Source: Centroberyx gerrardi (Eukaryota > Chordata > Actinopteri > Beryciformes > Berycidae). From it: a stretch of 64,000 bases of DNA. The stretch spans positions 21,293,480-21,357,479 of the forward strand of contig NC_136010.1 in the NCBI RefSeq assembly GCF_048128805.1, written 5' to 3'. The notes below the pieces were generated by a model. It was not told where the DNA came from. It did no database searches and saw only the letters and a program-made list of their open reading frames with translations. How positions within the stretch are numbered: position 1 is the first letter of the stretch; each line of letters starts with the position of its first letter. The translations under genes were made by a program, and so were the position numbers. This document shows positions 7,857 through 53,500 of this stretch, one piece after another.

Positions 7857-8137
7857 GCTTATACTTTATTTGTGCTTGGGCTGGTGTTGACCAATTAGAA
7901 GTAATTGGATGAAAAACAGATAAATCATAATTCATCCCATTCACCCCCTCCTATCTACCCCACTAATTAGGCTTTGTGTATGCCTCGCAGACGGAGAGAA
8001 CATGGATTCTAGAGCAAGACCGATTATAGAAATCACTGGATTGTGGAAAAATGTCACCTAAGGACTAACTGTGAACCCATCTTTTGTGCTGTTATTCACT
8101 GTTATTTGTTGGTGTATCATAAATTGCAGCTAATTGG

Positions 8138-8290
8138 GACAGCAGAAGCCGATCAGTTAGGGGACACTCTTGTGATTGACGGATCATCGGTTCAAATCCC
8201 TAGGTGGGAAAATCTTTGTGAAGGGAATGAGAAAGGTTCTTCCAATGCCGTCAGAGTAACTCCTACTACGTCAGGAGGCCACTGCTGTAA
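8138..8290 (+). repeat. tRNA-like SINE fragment, unit A copy
   Basis: GATCAGTTAGGGGACACTC followed about 30 nt later by GGTTCAAATCCC resembles pol III A and B boxes, then the body GTGGGAAAATCTTTGTG. The 83-residue open frame across it is therefore probably not a gene, although it is preserved in both duplicate units. Confidence 0.5.
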
Positions 8291-8960
8291 GTGAGACAGT
8301 GTTCTTATTAATAACGCTGCCTTATTGAGGAATTAAAAATAGGATTATCCTAACACCTCATTAAGGAGTGAAAATGTTTTATGTTAAAAAGCCACCAGAT
8401 TCTTGTCACTATAAAACTATTTTAGAGTTTTACTGGTTCCATAAAATCCATCTGAGATCACTATTCAGAGGCACATATTTGGGGAGATAGAAGTTTTTCA
8501 TCACTTCATAAGCTTTAATGCACTTAATACTGTATTCCAAAACCTTGGATGTGTCAGTTTATTCAAGGTCCTTATGATATAACTGACAGGACGTCAGTCT
8601 TTGGTAATGATATTCATTGAAACATTTGGAGCCATTCTACTGTCTTTCATATGGTTACTTACTTGGTCCGTTGTCCTATAGTGGATATGGAAATGCATTT
8701 ATTTCTGAAGCTATATTCTATGCATATTAAGGGCCACTGATTAAAGTAGATAACTGATGGCAGCTTACAAGCTTAAACCCCCCCCACACATTTTACACAT
8801 TCTAGACTGAGATTTGATGATACACACGTGAAAGTTTTAATTTCCAATTCTGTAATTCATAAATGAAAGATAAACAGATCTTTAAATAAACCATTGGATG
8901 TTTGCTCTGGGACACCAATTTGTTTTCAAAGCATTTATAATTTCTGATTGCTGCACTGAT

Positions 8961-8963
8961 CAC

Positions 8964-8999
<36 letters not shown>
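8961..8999. repeat. (CA)n microsatellite
   Basis: CA dinucleotide tract. It lies in a stretch that unit B has lost. Confidence 0.9.
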
Positions 9000-9001
<2 letters not shown>

Positions 9002-10651
9002 ATACACTCACTGAGGGATCAGTCCTCACAAAGACTTGTCTTCATCATTCAGATGCAATGTGTTTCATATACTGCCGCAGCGGAATTGCGGCTTTATTGT
9101 CTTGGTCGATCAGCTTGATGGACAGTAATGAAATGAATGACAGAAGATATCCCAGCAAAGTGCTCAGCCTCCACACACAAAGCACTCCAGAGCCCCCATC
9201 CACAGGAAGTGATGGAATGGAAGTAATTACCAGTAAATTAATTTGTCTGAAAAGTCTCACGCAATAATTATTAGGCTTTTGGCCCATCTGGACCATGAGC
9301 GGCATGGCCTTTCACTGCATCCTAAATCATCTGCAACATTTCCTCAAACAGTTGCATCACTGCATTGTGTCTGTCGCCTCATCTTGCTCTGTGCATTTCA
9401 GGTTAAAGCTTTTTTTTTTCTAAATTTGCATGCTGTCCCTTACTTGTCAGACTCTCATAATGTGTTGTAGTAGCTGTTGTAGCTGTCAAGGCTAAGGACC
9501 TTTAAAGCTTGTATACTCTCCCATCACAAAAAATACAGTGCTGTAACATAATGTATATCACTCGGAAAGTCAGTTGCGTTTTCAAATCTAAGAAGAATAT
9601 GTTGTTTACCAAGGCTTTTAATTTTGCACATACATTAAGAAACAATAACAGTATGAGCTATGCAGATATTAGTCATTTATTCCTCACAATGATACACATT
9701 GATGACCCGATATGAACTGGATGGCATTTGACAAGTAGCATGTTGCATTGCACTGGTGAGATCTGGTGAGATTGCATTTCACTTGTAATGAATAAAAGCT
9801 AGCTGATACAGAAAAGCTGTAAGTGATGAGGAATGGCTGCAGCTACTATAGATTTTTCAAACAGTCTGGGTTCAATCTCCTGACATTCAGACTAACATAC
9901 AGAGACAGTGAGCAAACACAATTTCTCACTATACCACCAGTGCAGAAAATGATGAAGTGTGCACAAACCCACCGAGGAAGAGCAAAGGACACAAGCTCCC
10001 AGCAAGACTTAGCTGTTTACTAGATTGGGGACAAAAGCTGTTATCAAAAACGCACTTTGCTATTATGGCAAATCAGCCAATATCCAATAAACTCACCTTG
10101 ATCTCAGTTCAAGCTCCTTGAGTTTGACTGTAAAATTAGTAGGGAGACAGAGACACCCTCTGGTATGTTTCTGCTGTTACTGCAGCAAGGTTGAGCTTGA
10201 AAATAGGTGTAAACCAGTACAAAGTTATCACATATATATTGTTTTCTGATACAAATTCAGATCATGTTGACTCGATTATCTCATTTTTAATATCCGAATA
10301 AGGAGAATAGAAGTTTTAGTAGTCCTCATATAACATTACAACACTACACAGTTCAGTGAAACAGACTTCTGTAATGAGTTAGGCTTTGTATCTGAGAGGT
10401 CTAAAGTTTTAATAGGAGGCAAAGACAATAATAAAGATTAATCCAATTCTCAGATCAGCACGGCAGACTATATATGCGTCCCACCTTAGTTAACAATTCA
10501 GTCTTGTCGGTTGCTTCATTGGGAATCATACCATCATACCAATCTAAAAGCTGTCAAAGCTGTGAACATTGATTCTAACTACACAGCTAATAAAAATCAA
10601 CATCTGCTGTGCCATTAGAGAGAAAGGAGAGGAGAGAGCACGGATAGAAAT

Positions 10652-10653
<2 letters not shown>

Positions 10654-10703
<50 letters not shown>
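10654..10703. repeat. (GA)n microsatellite
   Basis: Uninterrupted GA tract. In unit B the tract and about 340 bp before it are deleted. Confidence 0.9.
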
Positions 10704-11044: not shown

Positions 11045-12555
11045 GAATTATCTGGGAAATGGAATACACTCATTTGGATAACACAATTTGCATGCCCGAG
11101 ATTTCACCTGAATTCATTGCTCTTTTGATCTTAAAAAATAGTCTTTCAAGCGCACATAGGCTTCATTCTGACTGACCCGCTGACTAGCAGCAGCAGCAGC
11201 AGCAATTATCCTGACAAAGCATACACATCTGTGTATGTATGAATATCTTGCTAAGAATTGGAAGCCTTGATGGATTTACCTAGTCTTTTGTGTCGTCCTG
11301 ATGCAGTCTTTTTCCTCCCTGTATATCTCATGCTCAAGTTTACCATGACAGATGCCTTTGATCTACCAACTCTTTTATTCAGTTGCTTATCTATCAAATC
11401 ACCCCCTTTGTGAACTTCACCTCAGTTGTTAACAGTGGAGATTTGGTCAGTTGGATCAATAATCAGTCACAATGAGAACTGTGCGGGAAAACCTTCAGGA
11501 AATGCTAATGTTATACTACACTGCTGATTGGTTTAGGCTATTAAAGAGACTTTGTTTTAGGTCAAACCTGGGTCAAATAATATGTGCGAGTAATTATTAG
11601 CATTTGTTTTAATCTGTTAACATCACCGGATGGGTGAGCCTGCCACAGGGCAATGTAATGAGTGTAAGAATGATTTGACAAACTATTTGAAAGTCAAATC
11701 AGTATACTGACAATTTACCTTAAAGTGCCTTAATTGTGTGTTAAGGTTAAAACAAATGCTGCGTTAGTAGTTATTTGACCCAGGTCTGTTTTAGGTCTGG
11801 CTGCAAAATGACTTCCCTTTTCATTCCAGCGCACCAACCAGAACTCGGCATATAGCTGAACCTTCAGATCACTTTGCTGTATCCATTCTGTAGGCGACTT
11901 CTTATAAGACAGCTTTACTTATTCTGCTGGGAGACTAGTCGTGACTGCTGATCTATTTCAAACTCATCGGATATTGCGGTCACGCCTCTCACTTTCCATT
12001 CTGGCTCGCCATAAAAAGTCTCAGTGGACACTTAATGCCTTTCAAAACACTACATTAGATCTGTAAATCTGCAGGATATTCAGAGAACATGAAATGGATA
12101 TTCAGTTGAAGTGTTCCTGACCTTCGCTAGCACCTCAACGAGCCACAGCTCTGTGCGCAGGGCAGCAGGGCAAGGACAATATACTTGATGAAAATGACAA
12201 AGAGCTAGGAAAGCACGGCTTGAATCTAACATCATTTCTTATTTCTAAACATTACCATGCAATTGTCATCACATCTGAAAAAAAAATCCCTTTTCAAATG
12301 TGTGCTGCATTTCATACTTTCTATTACAAATCAGAAAAAGATTATAATCTTCATGCTAAACTACATAACTCAAGTCGTTAACTGACCAAAAAGAAATTGG
12401 TAAATACTGTATGCCCTAATATTGTCTAAAATGCCTGAACATAATGAGAAATAGCTATGTCATAAAGATTTATCTATATTGTTCATTGTCAACAATGTCT
12501 TATTGACTTTTAAGATTCTCAACTGTTTTCTGTGAACAAATCATCAGTTCTCTAA

Positions 12556-13540
12556 TAGTGCGATGGCTTCAGAAAGTATTCAACCCCCTTGACCTTTTCT
12601 GCATTTTGTGGCATTGCAGACTAAACACAAAATAGATTAAATAGTGATCATTTAACAATCTACACAAAATACTCCAAAAAAAGGTAAGAACATGTTTTTA
12701 GAAATCTTTGCAAATTTATTGAAAATGTATTGAGTCAAAACTTTGTAGAAGCCCCTTTGGCAGCAATTGCAGCTACAGGTCTTCTTTGATACGTCTCTAT
12801 CAGCTGGGCACATTCGGATTTGGGGATTTTCTCCCATTCTAACGTGCAGATTTGCCCCATCACGCTTCACAGTAAGAGATGGTGTTAGATGGGTGATAAG
12901 CTGTGCTAGCTCTTTGTGTTAACAGCTGAAAAGTTAAATTTTCGTTTAGGGAGACCACAGAATCTTTTGCCTCACGCTTTCAGAGTCTCTCACTGCCTTT
13001 TTACCAACTCTACTCGTGCCATAATAGGTCTTTTTATAAAGCGCAGCACTGACTGTTGTCCTTCCGGCAGGATCTCCCATTGCAGCCAATAAACTCTGCA
13101 GGTCTGTCAGAATGGTCCTTGGTCAGCTCACTGATCAAGCTCCTTCTTGCCCAGTTGCTCAGTTTGGTCAGACTCTAGGAAGAATCTGAGTAGTTCCATT
13201 TTTTTCCAGAGAAAAAAAGATGGAGCTTTTGTGAACTCCCAACACTTTAGAAGCTGTTTTATACCCTCACCCAGATCTATGCCTCCTTATAATTCGGACT
13301 CTGAATTCTGCAGACAGTTCCTTGGACTTCATGGTTGAGTTTCTGATCTTACATGCGTTTATACGGATATATGCGCTTCATTCTAAATCATGTCCAATCA
13401 AATGAATTGGCCACAGATGGACTCCAATCAATTTGTAGAGACACATGAAGGACACTGAAAATAATTTGGATGCACCTTAACTCAATTTGTCGCTGCAGAG
13501 ATATAAGAGTGTCACTGCAAAGGGGTTGAATACTTATTAC
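12556..13540. mobile_element. Tc1/mariner-like fossil, unit A copy
   Basis: The left end AAGTATTCAACCCCCTTGAC and the right end (inverted: AAGTATTCAACCCCTTTGC) form inverted repeats of the kind seen on the Tc1-like family abundant in salmonids and other fish. The inside keeps landmarks of that family on the same strand, such as TTTGGCAGCAATTGCAGC near the left and TGGACTCCAATCAATTTGTAG near the right. The coding strand of the lost transposase is the minus strand. Most of the centre is deleted and no intact transposase remains. Confidence 0.75.
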
Positions 13541-13979
13541 AAAATCAGTTCTTGACAAATGAAACTGGCTCTTGTCGAGAACGGTTTAGAATGCCAAATT
13601 TGCTCTTGATGTAGGTCGAAAGAATACACAACTTTTTCCAGTGAATTTATTTTACTTGAGTTAGATTAGCCTTAGATAAAACACATGAACATTAAATAAG
13701 TGACCAATTAAAATAGATTAGAAATCGTGTGCATTTATTCAATCTCCAAACCATTACCTTTGTTGTCCTTCTGCATTTTTGTGCCAAAACCAAGATGAAA
13801 ACACGTACATCATCTGCGCAAACAAACATAAATGAAAACATAAGCCAGATGCTGCGAATCTAATCCATTCATGCAGAGCCCTACTGATGTTTTTGCTTTG
13901 GCAAGCTTCCTGTGAATCTGATGTGAGAGCTGCATGAAAAGGTCCATGTTGAGACAGCTGTCAATGTCCATTTCACCTC

Positions 13980-16892
13980 TCAGCTTTCATCTGCCTCCAG
14001 GTTGATGTTGTTGCCAAACTTGGCATAGAGCTGGACCTTCAGATCACCCAACACTTGCTGGATTGCTGACACTCGTTCTTCAAGGTCCTTGACCTCCTGC
14101 TCCAGCGCTTCCTGTACGATAAAGAACATGGAGTTAGAGGATAGAAATCTCAAACTATCTGACAATCGCTGCTATTTCTTCATGAGTGTCAAGCAACGGG
14201 TTCAAAAGGCATCTCTATAAGCCAGTTAATGAAAGACTCTTTCCAGCTGTGTCATCAAAAACACATTCTGAAGGCATTTGGTAGCCAGTGAGTGGAGAAA
14301 AAATAAAAGGATATTTAAAATGATCTAAGTGTATGCTAAATTATCATCAGCAGATATGACGACATGATAGGTAAATTATTTTTTACAATTTTGTAGCTCG
14401 TCTGTCATTCATTGTGTGTAACAGACTACTGTGCATCCAATCAGTAGAGGCCAGCATGCTGTTCTCTGCTGTTGTGTGTGGAGGAGGCAGCGTCAAGGTG
14501 GGATGCAGGCAGGCTCAATAAACTGGTTAAAGAAAGGCTGGCTGTCATAGGGACATCCTGGCAGCGGTGGCAGAGGGGAGGATGAGGTCTAAACTGACCT
14601 CCATCTTGGACAATACCTCCCATTCAATAAGTACAGCTCATCTCCCTGAGGTGTACCAAGAGGACTTCAAGCGCTCATTTGTGCCGACCGCCATTCAGCT
14701 AAACAAAGCCTTCTGCTACAATGGCTCAAGCCTCAGCCAACTGAGAGCAGTGCTGAGGTCCGCTCGCACTGCACCGTCTTCATGAACCGCTTTGGACCGT
14801 TCGTCACTGTTCTTATGCTCTGGACTATACTGTAAATCTGTCCTGCTTGCACAATTCTGATCTGCATTCATGCACATCACCTGTATATATCTTTCTAAAT
14901 GAGCTGATACAGATTTCTGAGCACATTTATGCACATATGCTACTTCCATCAGTAAATATGACCTTGATAATGAGAACAGTAAACAATGCACAGTTTATGT
15001 TACCTCTATGTGAACAAAACAACAAAGAAAAAATAAACTGCCAAAATAAGTTGCACTACTAATGTAAATGCACATGCAATAACTTGTAAAATTCTAATGC
15101 AAATGCACAAATGTGTACTCCTGTCCATAAAGTTGAAAAATAAAATGAGAGTGTGTAGCCCGACTGTTGCTGCCATAGCCTAGATCAGGAATATTAGCCT
15201 TTCTTATGTTTATATTCAATTAAACCATATATTAAAAAATAATGTCAGTTTAAATAAAGAGGCTGCCAAACCAATTTCCTCAAAGCACGGTTTAATTCTC
15301 CTTTGTTTGAATATAGCGGATGGACTATGTTTTAATGCTGCCTCAAAGTAGAACTTGACGAGGAAAACCCTGAACTTCAGGAGGAAAAGTTCCTCGCTCT
15401 GAGCTAAATAAAACAGAGCACACAATGTATCCTGTAATGTAAAATTGTATGTAAAATGTTTGGGTGTTAAGAAATGTATAAGCATTGGGAGCAGAAAGCA
15501 GTGTGCAAGCTCCAGAGCATGAGACTCCTGCAAATGACATTCATTGTTTTAAACAATTAATGACTGATGTCGTCTGATGCTGACTGTTGTTTTATTTACT
15601 GTCACCAATGTTTATATTTTAACAGAGATTCATTCACTAATTATTAATTCCTTTATGATGTTGAGTTTCATTATATACCTTTACATCTTAAAATCTCTCC
15701 AATGGTTCTTCAACAAAAGCTGTATGTTTTTCCAATGACCCATTTCCTGAGAGTCTTAAGACTATGAAGAGATCTCTAGATAACTGAGAAACTCTATGCA
15801 GCAGGCCCACCTTGGCAGCTTCCAGCATCTCTTGTGTCTCTTCCTGGGTGTGGCTGATAAAGACGTCACCAATTTGATAAGGGATCAACAGAGAGTCGTC
15901 GTCGAACATCATGAGGTCATCACTGGCATCCTGCAGGTTCTGCAGGGATTTCTGAATAAAGACATTAGCAGATTGTTACAGTGTTTCAGTTCTATCAGCA
16001 ATCAATACCACACTAAATGTCATCAGTATTATCCCAACAGTGCTTGGGTAGTATGACTGAAACTAGGTGATGTCGTTCTAGAGCTGATCATTCAAACTTC
16101 CCAAAATGATAAACAATACAGTCAGATTACATAACAGAAAATGTATAATCATAAGTGTATTTAGACAGAACAGATTTTATTTTTTCTCCAAACGTTTACA
16201 GACTTTGTGTGCAATTCCCAAACTTTTCAAGGTTTGACAATGGTCATATTCATTGTTGTCTTGTTTATATGACAGAAACACCCGAGTTAAGTCACACAAC
16301 ACAAGTCACAGCTCTTACTTTCTTTGCTTCTATTTCATCTTTGAGTTCTGTCATTCGACTTGTGTTCCTCGCGAATTTATTGATCTTCTGCTGGTCCTCG
16401 AAAGTGACATTAACATCTTCAACTGCCTGCAAGTGGGAGAGAAGGGAAATCTATTATTAGCCAAGCCCAGCTAGGCAGATCTGCCTGTTCATTTCATGCA
16501 GGTGATATTAGCATAGCTATCCAGATAGCTTGACTGCTGGCCTTGTCAACACTTACTGTCACCATCACGCCTTTCACAAGCTTGGCAATCATCATCATTA
16601 TCATCCTCATCCTCATCCTCATCCTCATCATCATCATGAAAAGGTTGACAGGCTAACTCAGGACTAGCGTGTCAGCTAGCTAGCTAACACTTAGCTAATA
16701 TCGTTGACATGCACGAGGGTGTGGCTAAAATTAAAATACCATCGGCAGACATTGTTTTGACTTTCTTATAAGCCCGTCCGCTTTTTTGGTGTATGTTTGC
16801 AGACGAACCAGCAACGAAAGCCTTTGAATACAACATTAAATATTATTCATTCAATTTAAACTTACTACAGTCGTTTTCATGGTGGCTGCCAT
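13980..16892 (-). CDS. pfdn4: Prefoldin subunit 4, intact copy (4 exons)
   Basis: A beta-type subunit of the hexameric prefoldin co-chaperone, which passes unfolded actin and tubulin to the CCT chaperonin in the cytosol. Coding exons: 16,866-16,892 (9 codons, MAATMKTTV), 16,319-16,426 (36 codons, AVEDVNVTFEDQQKINKFAR onward), 15,811-15,951 (47 codons, containing LLIPYQIGDVFISHTQEETQ) and 13,980-14,111 (43 codons plus TGA, ending KFGNNINLEADES). All junctions are GT-AG and phase 0. The predicted 135 residues match the human length (134) and sequence almost throughout, with N- and C-terminal coiled-coil helices around the central beta-hairpin region. The start is supported by the human-like MAATMK and an AAGATGG context. 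Probable poly(A) signals on the minus strand lie at 13,646-13,651 or 13,734-13,739. It is head to head with bcas1-A. This looks like the only working pfdn4 copy in the window. Confidence 0.95.
14156..15706. other. Unit A-only segment in pfdn4 intron 3, with a LINE-like fragment
   Basis: Unit B lacks this 1.55 kb; both sides share AAC at the junction, so it may be a deletion in B or an insertion in A. Around 14,480-14,790 a plus-strand frame contains RMRSKLTSILDNTSH and RSFVPTAIQLN, which resembles the degraded C-terminal tail of fish non-LTR retrotransposon ORF2. The rest is unremarkable. Confidence 0.45.
16589..16637. repeat. (ATCCTC)n / (ATC)n microsatellite
   Basis: Hexanucleotide and trinucleotide repeat in pfdn4 intron 1. 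It is shorter in unit B (44,890-44,935). Confidence 0.85.
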
Positions 16893-19036: not shown

Positions 19037-22000
19037 CACAGTCGGGCAGGTAGCTGGGCAAGTCCATCTCTTTGACAGACACGGAGTCACTTGCCACATT
19101 TTTCCTTCAGGAGGGGATATAGCTTGTTCATTTACAGAGGAGACACAAGGTAAGATATTACACTTTGAATGCTGTTGAAGTTTAGACAATGACAAAACAT
19201 AAATGGGAACGTTTGTGCAAGCTATTTTATCAGCTAATCACTCAAAAAGGAGTGGGCCATTATTGATATTTTTGTTTTCCCATGCAAAATGTATCATTAA
19301 CAAAATGGACCTTGCTAATTGCTTCTATTTTACTTCTGTAGGTCTCGACTGGGACAAATATGGGGAACGAGCATTCCAAAAACAATGAGATAACAATGGT
19401 AAAATTATATATTTTTTAACTAACTTGAAAATGTAAACTTGTGATATTATAGCATTGCAGTATAATTGTTTTAGTGCCTCAAAACCAGTTGCTGTTGAGA
19501 TACACAGGGGAAAGTAGATTAGCTGAGGTCTTGAACCAAACGTTTGAGCCTGGAAGCTAATCAGAATTGCTGGATGCCATGAATGTCAGTTGACAGTCAA
19601 GAGCAGTGCTTCTCTTGCAATTTAAACCCTTGTTAAAGATGTCTTGTGAACTGTAGATCTGGCATAGACTAACATTTCTGTGTTTTTCATAGAATGGGAA
19701 AAACCTTGAGAAGCATGAAAATGGCGTGAATGGCCATTCTGTAAACATCACATCCAATGACTTGGAGATTGATGGTGAGTGTCTAGGTTTCAGTATTTTT
19801 TTCTTTTTATAGAAATAAATGACAGTAAGACATGAAAAGGACGTAACAGAAATACAAGAAAACATACAGATAAAATGGTTCCTTCAGTGCTACTGATAAT
19901 ATATACATTGTTATAACTTTTGAAAATCTCTGATGATAACAGAAGATGATTCTTTGCTATTCCTTCTAGTTATAGACCAAACAGTCATTAAGCTCGAAGT
20001 TTGGACTTAATTTCACTCTCCTTTATTTTAATTCAATGTCTGTTTTGTTTTCACATATATGAGAATTCATGTTATGCATGGACAGACACAATGAATTGAT
20101 ATTTTCGTCACCAAATGAAGGGATTACTCTGAGTTGGACTCTGATAATGCTTTGTAAACACAGTAGACTCCCAGCTGTATTGCTCAATGTAAACTATAGG
20201 CGTAGCCTCAGACATGGACAAGGTGTAGCTATTTGATCTGTCATGGTGTAGTTTTTCTCACTGCATTAACAATTATGTTGTAGGATTCCCACTGGTACTT
20301 GAGTTTGCCTAAGAGTTAATATTGATCTTTGACTGTTAAAGCTAATGTCACTCTTTCCAGAACTGACTAGCCCATGTTTACCTCATGGAGCCTCATGGAG
20401 TCATAAGTAGTATGATGGCATAACATTCAAGGCTGTAAAAACTGCATGGATTTCTCTCTATTGCAGTGGTATCAGTTGGGAACTGTTCTGGTAAAGCAGA
20501 GAATGCATTAATATCACATAAATTATTGATAAATAAGATTAATCAGTGCAACAGAGACTTCATATAGAAATGATCTAAATTAATTATATTCCACTGTCTG
20601 ATCCTAGAGAGAACATGACCCAAGGTTACTGATAATATAATAACAATGTTTTTGTTTTTTTATTTGCAGTTACCAGTGAGACAGCTGTCCAGCAAAATGG
20701 CAAGCCTGTGTCATTAAACTCTTACACAGACTCAGTTGAGCCTGATTTTGTCGAACCAGATTGCCAAAATGATGAAGATCAAGTTATTTCTGAAAGCCCT
20801 GACCCCACCACTGAAAAGGAAGAGGTCAAGGAAACTAAAGAGGAAAAAGTAAAAGTTAATCTTTTTGGAAAAACATTCAAAACGAAAAAAGAATCTCCAA
20901 CCAGTGAGGAGAGTGTTCAAGAAAATGAGAGCTCAAATGAAGATCAAATGGATGTAAGTCCTCCTGCCACTGATCCACAGCCTGTAAGTACAATTCTCTT
21001 GTTCATTTTTATGTTTTCCTCTAATCTCTTTTCAACAGTCTTAATTGCTTCAAATCATTCACATTGTATTAGATTCACTTCAAATTGTTGACTCTATCAG
21101 TGCTTTGATCATTCCCATTATAAAATATTGCAAACAAAGATAATCAAATCATTTGTGTAATTATGAAACAGTTTAATTAAATTAGATTCATCATTGTGAC
21201 TAAGCACATGGTTATGTATCCCAGAAACAAAAACCCAAACTGCATTTTATTTAAACAAGAATGTTGATTTTCATGATGGAGTCAAGTTCAAGTGGAGAAG
21301 AAGAAGATACCACCATGGACATCATCAAGCAACCAGAGGAATCTGAACCTCCACATCACCAAGCTGAAATGGCGACACAGACGGACGAAAAAATGGAAGT
21401 TGATATTTCAACGCAAACTGAAAGTGAGTGCAAGGATGATGATGATGCAACCACCAACAATGAGACCCCAGGGACTGTAACAGAAGAGCTAGCCCTTATG
21501 GAGACAGCAACCGCTGAAGAACATTCAGAGAAGGAATCTGCTGCTATTATTGCTGATGAACCTGTTGAAGAGATTGCAAATGAGGTGGTCACGGACAGCC
21601 AGCCAACTGAGGTCATCTTTGGTGAAGTGGTCACCAGGGAGAACAATGAGATGTGTGAGAATGTGGTGTACAGGGCAGAGTGGGTGGAAATCACTGAAGA
21701 GATTGTAGACAGCCTCATCAACGGTGTGGAAGAGAGCATTACCACCCCCGAGGAAGCTGAACCAGAAATCACTACAGGACCAGAATCTACCCCAAAAGAA
21801 TCCATTATAGAAGATGAAATAATTACAGAAGAGGAAAATAAGGTTGTGGAAGATGTGGCAGTGGAGGAATCTTCCAGCCTTCCTGAAGAAATTACAATCC
21901 TTGAAGTGGGGGCAGATGGTGGTGTTGAGGCAGTTCTCGAATCCACTGACAATGCAGCTGTAAACATGTCACTAGACCCAAGAGCTGATGAAGTAATTAC

Positions 22001-23023
22001 TGAAGACAATGATGAAGTAACTGCAGTGGATATGTCAGTTGATGTGGTGCTGATTGAAACCGCTGAACCTGAACCTAATCCTATCACTCCTGAGGCTGAG
22101 GTGGGAGATAGTGTCAACTCCCTAGAGGAAGAGCTAGTCACTATGGTGATGGAAGCAGTTTCTGAGGTTGTTTCTGAGGAGCCAGAACTCACACCTGCCA
22201 CTCAAGAGGTGCCTGCTGAAGAAATTTCAGTCACTCCTGATGAGTTAGAAATTCCAATTAAGACGGAATCTACCCATGAAGAGGTCACCATTGATGATGC
22301 TGTTACAGAGGAGAACATGGAAGATATTGAAGATGTGCCAGTAACAAGTGACCAAGAAGTCACTGTGGATGAGCCCTCTGGTGATTGTGCTAACCCTTCT
22401 GAAGAAGAGCCTATCACTGAAGTGGTGATTGAGGCTCCTTCCGAAGAACTTGAGCCTGCCACCACAGAGGAAACTCCTGAAGATAGTTTTAGTCCTCCTG
22501 ATGGGCAAGAAATGCAAGTTGAGGAGGAGAACATTGAGGTTGCTGAAAAAGTGATAGCTGATGAGGGACCAGAAGCAGCCAACGAGCCTGCTGAGGTGTG
22601 TGCTGAAGGTGAAGGTGTCCCTGAAGAAGAAATGACAAATGAGGTGATGCTAGAGGCAGTAATTGAGGCCCTCTCTCAAGAATTTGAACCCAACCCTGTC
22701 ACACCTGAGGAGCCTGCTGAAGATAATGCTAGCCCCCTGGAAGAAGAGGCAGTCACTGCAACATTTCTTGTGCCGCTTTCTGGAGAACATAAATGTTTAT
22801 TTATTTATTTTTTTATTTTTTTATTTTTTTTATTTAACCTTTATTTAACCAGGTGAGTCCCATTGAGATTACAAGATCTCTTTTTCGAGGGAGCCCTGGC
22901 CAAGATAGCAGCAATACAGAATTTCAAACAACATACAAGCAAACATTAAAAGCACATAAAATACAACATACAGTAGCAACTCACAGAATCATATGCCTAA
23001 AAGACAGACAGGAGGAAACGGGT

Positions 23024-24656: not shown

Positions 24657-24679
24657 GCTTGCTACATACATGCTTCAGT

Positions 24680-36606: not shown

Positions 36607-36630
36607 TGTGTGTGTGTGTGTGTGTGTGTT
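36607..36630. repeat. (TG)n tract in an intron of the SAMD3-like gene
   Basis: GT-rich tract directly before the acceptor TTTTTGCAG at 36,637, where it serves as an unusual polypyrimidine-poor upstream region. Confidence 0.8.
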
Positions 36631-38225: not shown

Positions 38226-38230
<5 letters not shown>

Positions 38231-38315
<85 letters not shown>

Positions 38316-38658
38316 CCTCTCTCTCTCTCTCCCTCTCTCCTCCCCCTCTCTATCCTCCCTTTCTCTCCTCTCTCTCCTCTCCTCTCCCTCTCTCCTCTCT
38401 CTCTCTGCCTTTCTCTCTCCTCTCTCTCCCCTCTCTCCTCCCTCCCTCTGTCTCTCTCCTCTCTCCCCTCTCTCTCCTCCCTCCCTCTCTCTCTTCTCTC
38501 TCCTCCCTCTCTCTCCTCCCTCCCTCTCTTGCCTCTCTCTCTCCTCCCCTCTCTCTCTCCTCCTCCCTCTCTCTCTCCTCCCTCTCTCTCTCCTCTCTCT
38601 TCTCTCTCTCTCTGCTCTCTCTCCTCCCTCTCTCTCTCTTTCCTCTCTCTCTCTCTTC
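38231..38658. repeat. (TC)n / (CTCTCC)n low-complexity tract
   Basis: A 428-bp pyrimidine tract, pure TC at the start and then degenerate CTCTCC/CCTCCC. It sits in the last intron of the SAMD3-like gene. Three overlapping open frames (Ser/Leu-rich) cross it because TC repeats have no stops; they are not genes. Confidence 0.95.
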
Positions 38659-39441
38659 TGTTTTGAGGACTTTTATTATTAAGCTTATTAATATGCTTGA
38701 ACTGTTTTCTGATTGGTTAATGGTTTGAATGGAAAAGTTTGAATTGTTAAGTTAAGAAAGTTAAGTTTTGTTTTCCAAAGTAGGACTCATTTGACTTTAA
38801 AAATGGTGCAAGAACGCTGTTTTACCTTTTTACTATTATAAGTGGTTTTAAAATAAGAGCTTGAATAAAAAAATGATCATTGATGTGAAATGTTTTGTTG
38901 TTAATGAAGCTATTTTATTATTAATACAGTCATCTGTTTTTCTTCTATTTCCCAAGGTGTTTTTTCTCCATCAACCCAGAGAAGGGAACTAAAGTGGAGA
39001 AGAAAAACACATCCCATCTTCACGTGAACCCCAGAGTCCATACCTTGATTCAGGAACTTTCGGATCACGAGTGGCATGATGTCTGAATATGGACTAAACT
39101 CAGTAAGATTTATGGCATGTGATGATGTGCCCCACTCACAGTTTGAAGGTTTGTTTCAGCTTATTATCTGCTCAGTTCTTTAAGCTTAAGAAGCAAGTAA
39201 AAGTTTCAGACGAAATTGTTACAGAGTTTGTATGCAATTGTTACTGAGTTTTATTGCTCTTGTATTTCCTCATTTGCATGCCTGTACCTCAATTTGAAGA
39301 GCTTGTTTGAAGATATTGGTACATTTGTTCTATTTATTCTAATAAGGAAATGCAGTAATCCTTAAAGGGTGTTAAAAATTCTTACATTTATTCATAAAAA
39401 ATATGCCCTCTCTTTCTCTATTTTTCTACTAAACTGCACTG

Positions 39442-40320
39442 CTATAAGAAGGCAGTCTGAAATCGTCTAAGATAGAAGTGTTCAATCTGCCTGTAATGTA
39501 TAGAAACAGTTTCTATTTTTCACTGAGCAATAATCCGAGGCAATGAAAAATACTTTTAGACAGTTTTACAGTTTATATTTGAGATTGAGTCATAGAACAG
39601 GATTTTATGCCTTTAAACAATGTTTGTTTGGTATTTTTCAGTGAAATTGAATGGGATTAAATGTACAATAAGCTATTCTAATGTTTGTAAAGTACATATT
39701 ATGAATATGTATGTTGAGAAATGACAGATGTTGTTGTTCACTGCTTTGAGGTTAATAAATTCTTGGAAAGGCAAGTTATTATTGGAATTGTTTTAATTTT
39801 TCAGTACAGTAACTTAAGGTATATCTAGCTTTGCTTTTCAATTTTTAGATGCTTAATCTGTGTACACTGAGTTACATTTTTCACATTTCTGCTAAAAGTC
39901 AAACATCTATAAGAAGGCAGTGCAGTTTAAATGAAATCGTCTAAGATAGAAGTGTTCAATCTGCCTGTAATGTATAGAAACAGTTTCTATTTTTCACAGG
40001 CGATGAAAAATACTTTTAGACAGTTTTACAGTTTATATTTGGGATTGATATTAGATAGGAGTCAGAACAGGATTTTATGCCTTTAAATTGTAATGAATAC
40101 ATTTTACAGAAAATTCAATTGCAGTATTTAGATGTTGCTTTCACTGTAAAACTCTTGTCATTAACACTGCAAAATACACTACATTATAAACAACTTTTGA
40201 GTAAAATTTGCAGAAAAATTCAGTAAAATGACAGTCTTATAATGAGGCTTTTACAGTTAAACAATGTTGTTTGTTTGGTATTTTTCAGTGAAATTGAATG
40301 GGATTCAATGTACAATAAGC
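39442..40320 (+). repeat. Subterminal direct repeat of the CACTA-like element
   Basis: The segment 39,442-39,672 (from CTATAAGAAGGCAGT to TGTACAATAAGC) recurs at 39,907-40,320 with an extra stretch inside the second copy. The repeat unit holds short TTTTACAGTTTA-type motifs. Confidence 0.75.
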
Positions 40321-40822
40321 GACAACTGCATGTCAGTCTTACTGAAAGAATTAGTTTAATAGCAGCGTGGTCATGCTAATTCAGCAGAAAAGGGCTGTTG
40401 GATTTACAGGTTTAAAATGTAAATTTTTGGTAAATTACAACAGTTTTAAACTGTAAAATTTACAGGTTCTGTAAAGTTGTTTACATTTTTACTGTATTTT
40501 TTACAAAATTATTCTGGCAACCACAGCTGCCAGTTTTTCCCAACGGGATACTTTTTAAAGTGCAGGGTTTAACAAGCTGTGCATAAAGACAAGCCTGTGT
40601 GGGTGGAGCTCCTCTTAATCATAGCTATGAATGTTCAGCAGGAAACCCATGGGGAAGAGGAACTTGTTAATTGAGATCTTGATCCTCCAGAGGTGTTGGC
40701 TATAACTTCAAACTCTCCATTTATTTTTCTGATATTTTATTAGCTCAAGCAGGCCACACTTGAGGGCACAATTTAATGAGGTTTGTGCATTGTTTGTATT
40801 TGTGGGAGCCACCAACCATACA

Positions 40823-40899: not shown

Positions 40900-42420
40900 G
40901 AATTATCTGGGAAATGGAACACACTCATTTGGATAACACAATTTGCATGCCCGAGATTTCACCTGAATTCATTGCTCTTTTGATCTTAAAAAATAGTCTT
41001 TCAAGCGCACATAGGCTTCATTCTGACTGACCCGCTGACTAGCAGCAGCAGGAGCAGCAATTATCCTGACAAAGCATACACATCTGTGTATGTATGAATA
41101 TCTTGCTAAGAATTGGAAGCCTTGATGGATTTACCTAGTCTTTTGTGTTGTCCTGATGCAGTCTTTTTCCTCCCTGTATATCTCATGCTCAAGTTTACCA
41201 TGACAGATGCCTTTGATCTACCAACTCTTCTATTCAGTTGCTTGTCTATCAAATCACCCCCTTTGTGAACTTCACCTCAGTTGTTAACAGTGGAGATTTG
41301 GTCAGTTGGATCAATAATCAGTCACAATGAGAACTGTGCGGGAAAACCTTCAGGAAATGCTAATGTTATACTACACTGCTGATTGGTTTAGGCTATTAAA
41401 GAGACTTTGTTTTAGGTCAAACCTGGGTCAAATAATATGTGCGAGTAATTATTAGCATTTGTTTTAATCTGTTAACATCACCGGATGGGTGAGCCTGCCA
41501 CAGGGCAATGTAATGAGTGTAAGAATGATTTGACAAACTATTTGAAAGTCAAATCAGTATACTGTTATATGATTGACAATTTACCTTAAAGTGCCTTAAT
41601 TGTGTGTTGAGGTTAAAACAAATGCTGCGTTAGTAGTTATTTGACCCAGGTCTGTTTTAGGTCTGGCTGCAAAATGACTTCCCTTTTCATTCCAGCGCAC
41701 CAACCAGAACTCGGCATATAGCTGAACCTTCAGATCACTTTGCTGTATCCATTCTGTAGGCGACTTCTTATAAGACAGCTTTACTTATTCTGCTGGGAGA
41801 CTAGTCGTGACTGCTGATCTATTTCAAACTCATCGGATATTGCGGTCACGCCTCTCACTTTCCATTCTGGCTCGCCATAAAAAGTCTCAGTGGACACTTA
41901 ATGCCTTTCAAAACACTACATTAGATCTGTAAATCTGCAGGATATTCAGAGAACATGAAATGGATATTCAGTTGAAGTGTTCCTGACCTTCGCTAGCACC
42001 TCAACGAGCCACAGCTCTGTGCGCAGGGCAGCAGGGCAAGGACAATATACTTGATGAAAATGACAAAGAGCTAGGAAAGCACGGCTTGAATCTAACATCA
42101 TTTCTTATTTCTAAACATTACCATGCAATTGTCATCACATCTGAAAAAAAAATCCCTTTTCAAATGTGTGCTGCATTTCATACTTTCTATTACAAATCAG
42201 AAAAAGATTATAATCTTCATGCTAAACTACATAACTCAAGTCGTTAACTGACCAAAAAGAAATTGGTAAATACTGTATGCCCTAATATTGTCTAAAATGC
42301 CTGAACATAATGAGAAATAGCTATGTCATAAAGATTTATCTATATTGTTCATTGTCAACAATGTCTTATTGACTTTTAAGATTCTCAACTGTTTTCTGTG
42401 AACAAATCATCAGTTCTCTA

Positions 42421-43410
42421 ATAGTGCGATGGCTTCAGAAAGTATTCAACCCCCTTGACCTTTTCTGCATTTTGTGGCATTGCAGACTAAACACAAAATA
42501 GATTAAATAGTGATCATTTAACAATCTACACAAAATACTCCAAAAAAAGGTAAGAACATGTTTTTAGAAATCTTTGCAAATTTATTGAAAATGTATTGAG
42601 TCAAAACTTTGTAGAAGCCCCTTTGGCAGCAATTGCAGCTACAGGTCTTCTTTGATACGTCTCTATCAGCTGGGCACATTCGGATTTGGGGATTTTCTCC
42701 CATTCTAACGTGCAGATTTGCCCCATCACGCTTCACAGTAAGAGATGGTGTTAGATGGGTGATAAGCTGTGCTAGCTCTTTGTGTTAACAGCTGAAAAGT
42801 TAAATTTTCGTTTAGGGAGACCACAGAATCTTTTGCCTCACGCTTTCAGAGTCTCTCACTGCCTTTTTACCAACTCTACTCGTGCCATAATAGGTCTTTT
42901 TATAAAGCGCAGCACTGACTGTTGTCCTTCCGGCAGGATCTCCCATTGCAGCCAATAAACTCTGCAGGTCTGTCAGAATGGTCCTTGGTCAGCTCACTGA
43001 TCAAGCTCCTTCTTGCCCAGTTGCTCAGTTTGGTCAGACTCTAGGAAGAATCTGAGTAGTTCCATTTTTTTCCAGAGAAAAAAAGATGGAGCTTTTGTGA
43101 ACTCCCAACACTTTAGAAGCTGTTTTATACCCTCACCCAGATCTATGCCTCCTTATAATTCGGACTCTGAATTCTGCAGACAGTTCCTTGGACTTCATGG
43201 TTGAGTTTCTGATCTTACATGCGTTTATACGGATATATGCGCTTCATTCTAAATCATGTCCAATCAAATGAATTGGCCACAGATGGACTCCAATCAATTT
43301 GTAGACACATGAAGGACACTGAAAATAATTTGGATGCACCTTAACTCAATTTGTCGCTGCAGAGATATAAGAGTGTCACTGCAAAGGGGTTGAATACTTA
43401 TTACAAAATC
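42421..43410. mobile_element. Tc1/mariner-like fossil, unit B copy
   Basis: Same fossil as at 12,556-13,540, shared because it predates the duplication. It differs by about four bases deleted near 43,305. Confidence 0.75.
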
Positions 43411-43843
43411 AGTTCTTGACAAATGAAACTGGCTCTTGTCGAGAACGGTTTAGAATGCCAAATTTGCTCTTGATGTAGGTCGAAAGAATACACAACTTTT
43501 TCCAGTGAATTTATTTTACTTGAGTTAGATTAGCCTTAGATAAAACACATGAACATTAAATAAGTGACCAATTAAAATAGATTAGAAATCGTGTGCATTT
43601 ATTCAATCTCCAAACCATTACCTTTGTTGTCCTTCTGCATTTTTGTGCCAAAACCAAGATGAAAACACGTACATCATCTGCGCAAACAAACATAAATGAA
43701 AACATAAGCCAGATGCTGCGAATCTAATCCATTCATGCAGAGCCCTACTGATGTTTTTGCTTTGGCAAGCTTCCTGTGAATCTGATGTGAGAGCTGCATG
43801 AAAAGGTCCATGTTGAGACAGCTGTCAATGTCCATTTCACCTC

Positions 43844-45110
43844 TCAGCTTTCATCTGCCTCCAGGTTGATGTTGTTGCCAAACTTGGCATAGAGCTGGAC
43901 CTTCAGATCACCCAACACTTGCTGGATTGCTGACACTCGTTCTTCAAGGTCCTTGACCTCCTGCTCCAGCGCTTCCTGTACGATAAAGAACATGGAGTTA
44001 GAGGATAGAAATCTCAAACAAAAGCTGTATGTTTTTCTAACGACCCATTTCCTGAGAGTCTTAAGACTATGAAGAGATCTCTAGATAACTGAGAAACTCT
44101 ATGCAGCAGGCACCTTGGCAGCTTCCAGCATCTCTTGTGTCTCTTCCTGGGTGTGGCTGATAAAGACGTCACCAATTTAATAACTGATCAACAGAGAGTC
44201 GTCGTCGAACATCATGAGGTCATCACTGGCATCCTGCAGGTTCTGCAGGGATTTCTGAATAAAGACATTAGCAGATTGTTACAGTGTTTCAGTTCTATCA
44301 GCAATCAATACCACACTAAATGTCATCAGTATTATCCCAACAGTGCTTGGGTAGTATGACTGAAACTAGGTGATGTCGTTCTAGAGCTGATCATTCAAAC
44401 TTCCCAAAATGATAAACAATACAGTCAGATTACATAATAGAAAATGTATAATCATAAGTGTATTTAGACAGAACAGATTTTATTTTTTCTCCAAACGTTT
44501 ACAGACTTTGTGTGCAATTCCCAAACTTTTCAAGGTTTGACAATGGTCATATTCATTGTTGTCTTGTTTATATGACAGAAACACCCGAGTTAAGTCACAC
44601 AACACAAGTCACAGCTCTTACTTTCTTTGCTTCTATTTCATCTTTAAGTTCTGTCATTCGACTTGTGTTCCTCGCGAATTTATTGATCTTCTGCTGGTCC
44701 TCGAAAGTGACATTAACATCTTCAACTGCCTGCAAGTGGGAGAGAAGGGAAATCTATTATTAGCCAAGCCCAGCTAGGCAGATCTGCCTGTTCATTTCAT
44801 GCAGGTGATATTAGCATAGCTATCCAGATAGCTTGACTGCTGGCCTTGTCAACACTTACTGTCACCATCACACCTTTCACAAGCTTGGCAATCATCATCA
44901 TTATCATCCTCATCCTCATCCTCATCATCATCATGAAAAGGCTGGCAGGCTAACTCAGGACTAGCGTGTCAGCTATCTAAGCTAGCTAAGCCCGTCCGCT
45001 TTTTTGGTGTATGTTTGCAGACGAACCAGCAACGAAAGCCTTTGAATACAACATTAAATATTATTCATTCAATTTAAACTTACTACAGTCGTTTTCATGG
45101 TGGCTGCCAT
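43844..45110 (-). pseudogene. pfdn4: Prefoldin subunit 4, copy B, nonsense mutation
   Basis: Exons line up with copy A: 45,084-45,110; 44,622-44,729; 44,114-44,254; 43,844-43,975. Exons 1, 2 and 4 are intact in frame. In exon 3 the motif IPYQIGDVF of copy A is changed: the CCT proline codon is AGT (Ser) and the CAA glutamine codon is TAA (44,177-44,179). The product would stop after about 70 of 135 residues, losing half of the core and the whole second helix. Intron 3 is 138 bp against 1.7 kb in A, and the exon 3 donor region has lost two bases (GTGCCT instead of GTGGGC). Exon-skipping rescue is unlikely to give a normal prefoldin fold. Confidence 0.9.
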
Positions 45111-47596: not shown

Positions 47597-50500
47597 ATGG
47601 GGAACGAGCATTCCAAAAACAATGAGATAACAATGGTAAAATTATATATTTTTTAACTAACTTGAAAATGTAAACTTGTGATATTATAGCATTGCAGTAT
47701 AATTGTTTTAGTGCCTCAAAACCAGTTGCTGTTGAGATACACAGGGGAAAGTAGATTAGCTGAGGTCTTGAACCAAACGTTTGAGCCTGGAAGCTAATCA
47801 GAATTGCTGGATGCCATGAATGTCAGTTGACAGTCAAGAGCAGTGCTTCTCTTGCAATTTAACCCCTTGTTAAAGATGTCTTGTGAACTGTAGATCTGGC
47901 ATAGACTAACATTTCTGTGTTTTTCATAGAATGGGAAAAACCTTGAGAAGCATGAAAATGGCGTGAATGGCCATTCTGTAAACATCACATCCAATGGCTT
48001 GGAGATTGATGGTGAGTGTCTAGGTTTCAGTATTTTTTTCTTTTTATAGAGATAAATGACAGTAAGACATAAGGACGTAACAGAAATACAAGAAAACATA
48101 CAGATAAAATGGTTCCTTCAGTGCTACTGATAATATATACATTGTTATAACTTTTGAAAATCTCTGATGATAACAGAAGATGATTCTTTGCTATTCCTTC
48201 TAGTTATAGACCAAACAGTCATTAAGCTCGAAGTTTGGACTTAATTTCACTCTCCTTTATTTTAATTCAATGTCTGTTTTGTTTTCACATATATGAGAAT
48301 TCATGTTATGCATGGACAGACACAATGAATTGATATTTTCATCACCAAATGAAGGGATTACTCTGAGCTGGACTCTGATAATGCTTTGTAAACACAGTAG
48401 ACTCCCAGCTGTATTGGGTATCGAGTCTTACAATGTAAACTATAGGCGTAGCCTCAGACATGGACAAGGTGTAGCTATTTGATCTGTCATGGTGTAGTTT
48501 TTCTCACCGCATTAACAATTATGTTGTAGGATTCCCACTGGTACTTGAGTTTGCCTAAGAGTTAATATTGATCTTTGACTGTTAAAGCTAATATCACTCT
48601 TTCCAGAACTGACTAGCCCATGTTTACCTCATGGAGCCTCATGGAGTCATAAGTAGTATGATGGCATAACATTCAAGGCTGTAAAAACTGCATGGATTTC
48701 TCTCTATTGCAGTGGTATCAGTTGGGAACTGTTCTGGTAAAGCAGAGAATGCATTAATATCACATAAATTATTGATAAATAAGATTAATCAATGCAACAG
48801 AGACTTCATATAGAAATGATCTAAATTAATTATATTCCACTGTCTGATCCTAGAGAGAACATGACCCAAGGCTACTGATAATATAATAACAATGTTTTTG
48901 TTTTTTTATTTGCAGTTACCAGTGAGACAGCTGTCCAGCAAAATGGCAAGCCTGTGTCATTAAACTCTTACACAGACTCAGTTGAGCCTGATTTTGTGAT
49001 AGTCGAACCGGATTGCCAAAATGATGAAGATCAAGTTATTTCTGAAAGCCCTGACCCCACCACTGAAAAGGAAGAGGTCAAGGAAACTAAAGAGGAAAAA
49101 GTAAAAGTTAATCTTTTTGGAAAAATATTCAAAACGAAAAAAGAATCTCCAACCAGTGAGGAGAGTGTTCAAGAAAATGAGAGCTCAAATGAAGATCAAA
49201 TGGATGTAAGTCCTCCTGCCACTGATCCACAGCCTGTAAGTACAATTCTCTTGTTCATTTTTATGTTTTCCTCTAATCTCTTTTCAACAGTCTTAATTGC
49301 TTCAAATCATTCACATTGTATTAGATTCACTTCAAATTGTTGACTCTATCAGTGCTTTGATCATTCCCATTATAAAATATTGCAAACAAAGATAATCAAA
49401 TCATTTGTGTAATTATGAAACAGTTGAATTAAATTAGATTCATCATTGTGACTAAGCACATGGTTATGTATCCCAGAAACAAAAACCCAAACTGCATTTT
49501 ATTTAAACAAGAATGTTGATTTTCATGATGAAGGAGTCAAGTTCAAGTGGAGAAGAAGAAGATACCACCATGGACATCATCAAGCAACCAGAGGAATCTG
49601 AACCTCCACATCACCAAGCTGAAATGGCGACACAGACGGACGAAAAAATGGAAGTTGATATTTCAACGCAAACTGAAAGTGAGTGCAAGGATGATGATGA
49701 TGCAACCACCAACAATGAGACCCCAGGGACTGTAACAGAAGCGCTAGCCCTTATGGAGACAGCAAACGCTGAAGAACATTCAGAGAAGGAATCTGCTGCT
49801 ATTATTGCTGATGAACCTGTTGAAGAGATTGCAAATGAGGTGGTCACGGACAGCCAGCCAACTGAGGTCATCTTTGGTGAAGTGGTCACCAGGGAGAACA
49901 ATGAGATGTGTGAGAATGTGGTGTACAGGGCAGAGTGGGTGGAAATCACTGAAGAGATTGTAGACAGCCTCATCAACGGTGTGGAAGAGAGCATTACCAC
50001 CCCCGAGGAAGCTGAACCAGAAATCACTACAGGACCAGAATCTACCCCAAAAGAATCCATTATAGAAGATGAAATAATTACAGAAGAGGAAAATAAGGTT
50101 GTGGAAGATGTGGCAGTGGAGGAATCTTCCAGCCTTCCTGAAGAAATTACAATCCTTGAAGTGGGGGCAGATGGTGGTGTTGAGGCAGTTCTCGAATCCA
50201 CTGACAATGCAGCTGTAAACATGTCACTAGACCCAAGAGCTGATGAAGTAATTACTGAAGACAATGATGAAGTAACTGCAGTGGATATGTCAGTTGATGT
50301 GGTGCTGATTGAAACCGCTGAACCTGAACCTAATCCTATCACTCCTGAGGCTGAGGTGGGAGATAGTGTCAACTCCCTAGAGGAAGAGCTAGTCACTATG
50401 GTGATGGAAGCAGTTTCTGAGGTTGTTTCTGAGGAGCCAGAACTCACACCTGCCACTCAAGAGGTGCCTGCTGAAGAAATTTCAGTCACTCCTGATGAGT

Positions 50501-53500
50501 TAGAAATTCCAATTAAGACGGAATCTACCCATGAAGAGGTCACCATTGATGATGCTGTTACAGAGGAGAACATGGAAGATATTGAAGATGTGCCAGTAAC
50601 AAGTGACCAAGAAGTCACTGTGGATGAGCCCTCTGGTGATTGTACTAACCCTTCTGAAGAAGAGCCTATCACTGAAGTGGTGATTGAGGCTCCTTCTGAA
50701 GAACTTGAGCCTGCCACCACAGAGGAAACTCCTGAAGATAGTTTTAGTCCTCCTGATGGGCAAGAAATGCAAGTTGAGGAGGAGAACGTTGAGGTTGCTG
50801 AAAAAGTGATAGCTGATGAGGGACCAGAAGCAGCCAACGAGCCTGCTGAGGCGTGTGCTGAAGGTGAAGGTGTCCCTGAAGAAGAAATGACAAATGAGGT
50901 GATGCTAGAGGCAGTAATTGAGGCCCTCTCTCAAGAATTTGAACCCAACCCTGTCACACCTGAGGAGCCTGCTGAAGATAATGCTAGCCCCCTGGAAGAA
51001 GAGGCAGTCACTGCAACATTTCTTGTGCCGCTTTCTGGAGAACATGAATGTAGCCTTACACTTCCAGAGGAGCCTGCAGAAGAGAGTGTTATCCCACCCC
51101 AAGATGAGACAATTGCTGAAGAGATGATGGAGGCAGTTATTCAGGCTCTGTCAGATGATTTTGATGCAGTGCCAGAAAGTATTGATGAAGATCCCAGTAT
51201 CAAAGAAGCACTTGCCGGCGCAGAAGTCACAGAGGTTAGCACTCCTGAGGAACCTGCTGAAGAAGTAATCCCTAACAAAGAAGTAGAACCAGAGGAGAAC
51301 ACTGAAGTATCTGAAGATGCTTTGGCACAAAGTGAAACCACTGAAACAGATGAACAAATCCCTGTTATCTCCGAGGAACCTGTAGAAGAGAATGCCAGCT
51401 CTTTTAAAGAAGAATCAACCACTGACTTGTTGGAGAGTATAATAGAATCAGTTGTTGAAGCCATTTCAGAGAAGCTTGTAATTAATGGAATAGTCACTGA
51501 AAACATAGTTGAGGCATCTGAAGATGTGCCAGCAGATGTGTCACTGGTGGAAGCCATAGAGGAACCTGAAGCCAGCCTTTCAGTTCCTGAGGAACCAATG
51601 GAGGAGAACATTAGCCCTGCTGAAGTACTGTTGGATGATGCATCTGTGGTTGGTGTGGAAGTCATGGAAACCATTGACCCAACTGAGCCCAGCCCTGTTA
51701 CTTCTGAAGAGCTTGTGGAAGAGAGCATTAGCCTTCCTGAAGAAGAACCAAAACCTGAAGTGGCACAGGCAAATGAAGATGAAGTCACGGAAGAGATAAC
51801 ATATGAAACTGATGTTTCTGGAGATGTTGCAGCTGCAGTAGAGGAGGAGAACATTGAAGAATCCACTGCTACCACTCCAGATGAGCCTGTGGAGGAGAGT
51901 GTCAACCCTCCTGAAGAAGAGTCAACGTTTGGAGAGGTGGCAGAGTGCATTGATACAGTTACTGAGGCCGTTTTCGAGGGTAATACAGAGGTACCTGAAA
52001 ATATGGAGGAGGAAGCTATTGATGAGGCTGTCTTGGAAGAGAAAAATGATGATGCATGTGAAGATGTGTCACCAGATGAGGGATCTGACTCGTGTGCCAT
52101 CACTGCTGACCAGTCTATGGAAGGGGATGTTACTGAAGCAGAAGAAAATAAGGTGACCCTTGAAGTGCTGATGGAGTGTGGTGTTGAAGAAATTGTCATT
52201 ACAGAGGATGTTGCAGCTGCAGTAGAGCAAGAGATCATCAAAGAATTCACTGCTACCACTCCAGATGAGCCTGTGGAAGAGAGTGTCAACCCTCCTGAAG
52301 AAGAGTCAACGTTTGGAGAGGTGGCAGAGTGCATTGATACAGTTACTGAGGCCGTTTTAGAGGGTAATACAGAGGTACCTGAAAATATGGAGGAGGAAGC
52401 TATTGATGAGGCTGTCTTGGAAGAGAAAAATGATGATGCATGTGAAGATGTGTCACCAGATGAGGGATCTGACTCGTGTGCCATCACTGCTGACCAGTCT
52501 ATGGAAGGGGATGCTACTGAAGCAGAAGAAAATAAGGTGACCCTTGAAGTGCTGATGGAGTGTGGTGTTGAAGAAATTGTCATTACAGAGGATGTTGCAG
52601 CTGCAGTAGAGCAAGAGATCATCAAAGGTGGATTCTTTGATGATGCTACCGCTCCAGATGAGCCTGTGGAAGAGAGTGTCAATGGTCCTGAAGAAGAGTC
52701 AAGGTTTGGAGGGGTGGCAGAGTGTGTTGAGACAGAGTCTGTTGATACAGATACTGAGGCCATCAGCGCAGAGAGAAAGACAGAACAGAGTGTTAACCCA
52801 ACAGATTCCAGTTTGGACTTGTGCAGTACTAAAATAACTGTAAGCACCTCACTCACATTTAGAGACGAAGCATCATATGTGGAATGTGTTGAACCTGAGG
52901 AACTGAGCAATACTCCCATTGCTGCAGCTGAGGATGAGCAGGAGAAAATGGCAGCTTTACTCATTAGGTTGCAGTCAGCATGTACAACAGTTGTTGAAGA
53001 ATCAGCATATAGTATTGTCAGTATTGAGATGTCTTCACTGGAATACTGCATTATTGTTACAATTAATGTGGCTCTAAAGGAAGCAAAGCAGTAAAATGTT
53101 GAAGGGATTGTCCAGACATTGTTTTTGAAAAACGCTCATCTATCTCTTTAGGGTGTCATGTGTTTTATTGTATGAAGTGGTAATTGTGCATTGTAAAATT
53201 ATTCCTGTTCTTTTAATGCCTTTAAATGCCTGTTTGTACATATCATCAACACAAAGATCACATTGTAAAGAACTGTAACATTTTTCAATAAAAATGAAAA
53301 CACTGAGTTCATCTTGAAAATGTGAGGTTTCGACTTTTTTGTTCATTGTTATTATTGTAATGTTATTTTAGCATCCAGTTAATGGCATCCTGGTGGTCAA
53401 TGGTGAGTGATAAATGAATGTTTTTTCAGAAAAAAATTGAAAACATAATCAATGACTTAGTATGAAGTTAAAATGGGAAAATAAATTATCTCTTCAACTG

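Follow-up and report, generated by a model that had tools for sequence, protein, structure and literature searches.

How does a tandem duplication come to hold one intact and one broken copy of each of two neighbouring genes, with the damage falling on opposite genes in its two units? We addressed this question in a 64,000-nucleotide stretch of the Centroberyx gerrardi genome (contig NC_136010.1, positions 21,293,480 to 21,357,479; hereafter the window), in which two adjacent units, A and B, each carry a copy of pfdn4 and of bcas1. A first-pass annotation had read this arrangement as duplication of both genes followed by reciprocal loss through complementary decay. Our analysis points instead to a different history: this is probably a real, young, direct tandem duplication in which the bcas1 copy of unit A (bcas1-A) was truncated at birth and the pfdn4 copy of unit B (pfdn4-B) was later lost through a stop codon.

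Self-BLAST of the window returned eight collinear direct blocks at 92-99% identity, running from 7857/28898 through 28900/52413. Units A and B are adjacent direct copies with precise boundaries, as expected of a tandem segmental duplication, and the trinucleotide GCT is common to all three boundaries (7857-7859, 28898-28900 and 52411-52413), bearing out the duplication that the first-pass annotation had described. At present the units measure 21.0 kb (A) and 23.5 kb (B); without the long interspersed nuclear element (LINE) that it carries, unit A is approximately 16.3 kb. A full alignment, the measure of divergence named in the first-pass annotation, yielded 91 substitutions in 13,596 ungapped columns (0.67%) and 27 gaps; it excludes the large inserts, and a few of its substitutions and gaps are artefacts at the edges of cut blocks. 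Restricting the count to substitutions more than 4 columns from any gap leaves 79, which collapse to 66 events.

We located pfdn4 by tblastn, using a human sequence as the probe. The unit A copy (pfdn4-A) comprises four minus-strand exons (16866-16892, 16319-16426, 15811-15951 and 13980-14111, of 27, 108, 141 and 132 bases) with GT/AG boundaries, and its reading frame is open over all four. Relative to this copy, exons 2-4 of pfdn4-B contain one silent change, the replacement P69S and the stop Q71*; the exon 1 region, in which the exon was placed by offset, is identical to that of A, and intron 3 is shorter by 1,556 bases. The stop lies in exon 3, 63 bases from the last exon junction, and by the distance rule that links stop position to nonsense-mediated decay it should trigger this pathway. 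Together, the stop and P69S comprise three non-silent substitutions inside seven bases (44177-44185), which may represent one multi-base mutation.

The name bcas1 is presumptive, taken from the MGN start of the predicted product, the position of the gene and the first-pass annotation; no Pfam family matched the large exon. Both copies have a start codon (19360 in A, 47597 in B) and matching small exons. In bcas1-A, however, the large exon is interrupted by the LINE, carries a 28-bp deletion at 27873 and a 2-bp deletion at 28856, and has no homology to bcas1 after 28900. The 2-base deletion was assigned to A on the evidence of an internal repeat, three units of which (A1, B1 and B2) retain those bases. 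The bcas1 copy of unit B (bcas1-B) is stop-free from its ATG to 52413, and its large open reading frame (ORF) runs on to 53094. A GTAAG at 52840 resembles a splice donor, and visual inspection suggests another exon near 58,945-59,072. For the comparison between copies we began the large exon at 49512 and ended the preceding exon at 49234; the true sites are probably 49534 or 49537 and 49235, respectively, in the same frame. Every disabling change found in coding sequence common to the units affects bcas1-A or pfdn4-B, and none was found there in bcas1-B or pfdn4-A. The earlier description of unit A, an intact pfdn4 beside a broken bcas1, therefore stands in full. That of unit B stands for the stopped pfdn4 and for a bcas1 open through the shared part, but completeness of bcas1-B is only likely, as the exons after the large one were judged by eye.

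The position of the duplication edge distinguishes between the possible routes to this pattern. The edge at 52413 falls within the large exon of bcas1, which starts at approximately 49534/49537 and ends at the donor-like site at 52840 or, at the latest, with the ORF at 53094. Searched against the assembly, the sequence past the edge (52414-54500) matches at full length just once, at its own position; its four remaining matches, of five in all, come from the internal repeat in both units, as pieces of 136 and 313 bases (81% and 93% identity). Since the breakpoint lies inside the exon and the sequence beyond it is found once, bcas1-A was most likely never whole. It is, in this respect, a partial gene duplicate, the short copy of which lacks homology beyond the breakpoint. 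The LINE insertion and both small deletions would then be decay of a fragment that was incomplete from the start, and independent decay as the cause of bcas1-A loss was rejected, the breakpoint having already taken the 3′ end.

These findings bear directly on the proposal that both genes were first duplicated in full and then lost one copy each, independently and in complementary fashion. Although both dead copies do bear point or insertion lesions, which speaks for that proposal, the junction sits in a coding exon of bcas1 and the sequence beyond it is missing from unit A and present once in the assembly; a longer original copy would have had to be deleted later, precisely to the start of unit B. 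We consider such a history highly improbable. Complementary decay of two whole bcas1 copies thus drops out, since bcas1-A ends at the junction. What remains of the claim of duplicate resolution is that one working copy of each gene is left, without two independent losses.

Under the favoured reading, a segment of approximately 16 kb (unit A minus its LINE) would have been duplicated directly in tandem, joining a point inside the bcas1 large exon, through 3 bases of microhomology, to a point lying approximately 6 kb past the 3′ end of pfdn4, a join of the kind expected from end-joining or replication template switching. The event would have left one whole and one 3′-truncated bcas1 together with two whole copies of pfdn4. 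The bcas1-A fragment would then have gained the LINE, two elements nested within it and two frameshifting deletions, while pfdn4-B, one of two redundant copies, would have been lost through the stop in exon 3. On this account pfdn4 alone was truly redundant, the pfdn4-B stop is the sole post-duplication loss that mattered, and the complementary pattern is one structural event plus one coin toss over which pfdn4 copy fails. The coordinates of the features are collected in Table 1.

Table 1. Features of the duplicated locus, in window coordinates.
Feature	Position	Strand	Basis or remarks
Unit A of tandem duplication	7857-28900	+	Self-BLAST and alignment
Unit B of tandem duplication	28898-52413	+	Self-BLAST and alignment
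Junction A/B, 3-base microhomology GCT, without N	28898-28900		Sequence read
pfdn4-A, intact, 135 amino acids	13980-16892	-	tblastn and exon model
pfdn4-B, same exons, TAA at codon 71 (44177-44179) and P69S	43844-45110	-	tblastn, alignment
bcas1-A, retaining its start and small exons, with a broken large exon, truncated at junction	19360-28900	+	
bcas1-B, ATG through large exon, open	47597-53094	+	ORFs, alignment, translation
LINE in bcas1-A	22797-27562	-	Exo_endo_phos_2; RVT_1 under its cut-off
DNA element nested in LINE	24008-24968	.	TAGGGGTGGGC in terminal inverted repeats; target duplication of 8 bases, CACTGGAG
Second element nested in LINE, inverted ends, TTAA both sides	25184-26070	.	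Edges accurate to a few bases
Insertion of 9.5 kb in unit B, with ends CACTGTAAAAA/TTTTTAAAGTG, CA both sides	31036-40562	+	
Candidate gene-conversion tract, substitution-free versus 41610-44019	11744-14155	.	A/B alignment
1,556-base pfdn4 intron block, in A, missing from B	14156-15711		A/B comparison and assembly search

Adjacent copies of this kind could also be produced by an assembler that set two haplotypes head to tail, in which case the pfdn4 stop and the bcas1 LINE would be heterozygous alleles. The divergence between A and B is inside the plausible range of heterozygosity. A survey of false duplications (PMC9516828) describes such heterotype cases in vertebrate assemblies, sometimes side by side and sometimes joined by wrongly filled sequence that no reads support; the marks it gives are half depth, a gap separating the copies, discordant linked reads and single-copy k-mers. 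We looked for a gap between the copies and found none: no N base occurs across the 264 kb that include the window and its surroundings, which leaves room for a wrongly filled gap, and the units meet at a microhomology. In the same 264 kb, no pair of sequences longer than 400 bases at 90% identity or more was found besides the duplication and the internal bcas1 repeat.

Searches of the whole assembly (779 Mb in 278 contigs, with the window on C14, of 31.9 Mb), match counts from which are lower bounds, further disfavour joined haplotypes. No third copy of the duplicated segment was found in them, and the flanks were not found elsewhere. Matches to 8000-9000 were confined to units A and B. Pfdn4 exons 2-3 with the intervening intron gave 24 matches, namely A, B and 22 that hit a short stretch of the intron alone. 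The left flank (5800-7856) has a single full-length match, the other 40 of 41 being to a repeat of approximately 170 bases. Joined haplotypes would also require one haplotype with three disabling events and nested insertions in bcas1 and another with a null pfdn4. The lesion load in bcas1-A, with none found in bcas1-B, fits a redundant fragment better than an allele. The locus resembles the false duplications described in PMC9516828 in its adjacent copies at allelic-scale divergence, and differs from them in its gap-free microhomology join and its lesion load; we regard an assembly artefact as unlikely.

A real duplication could nonetheless be polymorphic in the species and present here on one haplotype. 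This is a sub-case of the favoured reading and shares its anatomy, so that its probability is contained in that of the whole rather than additional to it. The low A/B divergence is compatible with it, and PMC9516828 describes a single contig that holds a tandem duplication specific to one allele, but the lesion load suggests that the duplication is not brand new. We hold this sub-case to be rather doubtful.

Beyond point substitutions, the units differ by several blocks: 1,556, 444, 384 and 104 bases are found in A alone, and 181 bases (30546-30726) in B alone. The 1,556-base block, in the third intron of pfdn4-A, occurs at full length once in the assembly, the other 51 of its 52 matches being short fragments at 66-90% identity, and the difference is therefore more likely a deletion in B than an insertion in A. 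A recent transposon insertion in the pfdn4-A intron was rejected on the same ground. The 444-base block (8793-9236) has one match in the assembly and the 384-base block (10314-10697) two, the second being to the neighbouring 62 bases common to B. Because both occur at full length here alone, they too are likelier to be deletions in B.

The distribution of substitutions suggests that the units have exchanged sequence. Between 11743/41609 and 15732/44037, a run of 2,428 columns is free of substitutions and contains one 2-base gap; when the 66 events were shuffled uniformly 20,000 times, a run this long was reached twice, and it is thus longer than the mean divergence predicts. The run stops 18 columns past the 1,556-base difference. 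Stretches of the two units have probably stayed similar through gene conversion between the living and the dead copies. Such conversion would account for the substitution-free run and also for insertions being so numerous relative to substitutions. Comparable exchange between a gene and its pseudogene is known in humans at CYP21A2/CYP21A1P and SBDS/SBDSP1. Those loci likewise have living and dead copies close by and tracts of unusual identity, whereas the present case consists of a single tract in one assembly, without a converted disease allele.

It is possible, if doubtful, that the units are older than their 0.6% divergence implies and have been kept similar by repeated conversion, since the nested transposons are out of step with the few substitutions and the tract lies over the 3′ end of pfdn4. 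If so, the living pfdn4 would share conversion traffic with a stop-bearing copy 28 kb away, and bcas1 and pfdn4, formerly head to head, would use separate spacer copies.

A smaller-scale exchange may have occurred within bcas1 itself. The large exon contains a 384-base internal repeat, at 51823-52760 in B (approximately 2.4 units) and at 28312-28900 in A. Eight substitutions at 28736-28842 separate the second repeat unit of A from that of B; at seven of these sites the B sequence is that of the first unit, and at three of them the A sequence is that of the third. The repeat units thus seem to exchange sequence by conversion. We rejected a mutation cluster beside the junction as the source of these differences, as the sites lie in the internal repeat and unit exchange explains part of them. 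Across the bcas1 comparison, 19 nonsynonymous and six synonymous changes give a ratio of nonsynonymous to synonymous rates (Ka/Ks) of 0.88. This value is weakly in line with relaxed constraint on one bcas1 copy, because both copies contribute to it, some sites were probably exchanged and the region is acidic and repetitive.

Several observations weigh against a young tandem duplication with bcas1-A truncated at birth, or limit what can be built on it. Haplotypes of variable fish may differ by 0.6-0.7% with large insertions and deletions, and the divergence seen here could also fit two such haplotypes. Whether the copies are duplicates or haplotypes, four transposon insertions are many for 91 substitutions, and allelic recombination could give the same substitution-free tract. 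The two bcas1-A deletions sum to 30 bases (28 + 2), limiting the frame shift to the stretch between them. Few sites underlie the Ka/Ks value, and repeat units have probably exchanged some of them. Finally, the check for other duplications covered just 200 kb of flank, and the evidence base is the sequence of one assembly of one individual.

Mobile elements are among the large differences between the units. The LINE in bcas1-A has a target duplication, AATGT, read by eye, and both elements nested in it are pieces missing from other copies of the LINE. We take the first of them (24008-24968) to be hAT-like and the second (25184-26070) to be piggyBac-like. The site of the 9.5 kb insertion in unit B is empty in unit A. 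By its ends this element is presumably CACTA/EnSpm-like, and it has three related copies, two on C8 and one on C20, with long stretches at 92-99% identity; one C8 stretch, which spans a CT-rich array, is at 83%. Besides a C2H2 zinc-finger ORF, the element carries two long ORFs, the longest of which had no match in Pfam and the second no meaningful one. Its CT-rich low-complexity array (38225-38659) resembles arrays at many places in the assembly (70-96% identity).

Outside the duplication, the repeat of approximately 170 bases in the left flank (5800-5970) is dispersed, being 89-99% identical to at least 39 other places. A zinc-finger gene, seen as ORFs, lies approximately 6.0-9.4 kb past the end of the window on C14 (70005-73366 in extended coordinates). 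It is presumably znf217, in keeping with the surroundings of BCAS1 in humans. In our judgement the genes present are of teleost type.

As a partial tandem duplication after which one redundant copy was lost, the locus is ordinary in kind, though a clean example. Nonfunctionalisation is the classical fate of a redundant duplicate, and the gain of a premature stop by one of two whole pfdn4 copies differs from it in nothing material. As in the partial gene duplications described in Katju 2012 (PMC3449122), the derived copy stops within a gene, so that a shortened paralogue adjoins a complete one; the present locus differs in that a second whole gene, pfdn4, was carried along and one of its copies lost. 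Among the abstract openings returned for pfdn4, bcas1, duplication and fish, nothing related was found.

The intact copies are now well separated, the start codons of pfdn4-A (16892) and bcas1-B (47597) being 30.7 kb apart, in agreement with the 30 kb or so first estimated. The further suggestion that their shared divergent spacer has been split holds insofar as there are two spacer copies, but the point is weak, because both units retain the aligned pfdn4-bcas1 spacer and each surviving gene still lies beside one copy of it. Divergently transcribed neighbours thus now sit on separate copies of a formerly shared spacer. Apart from this and its value as a teaching case, the locus reflects ordinary genome evolution. 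Its lesson is that when the two units of a tandem duplication hold dead copies of opposite genes, two independent losses need not have occurred, since a breakpoint that falls within a gene disables one copy as soon as it is formed.
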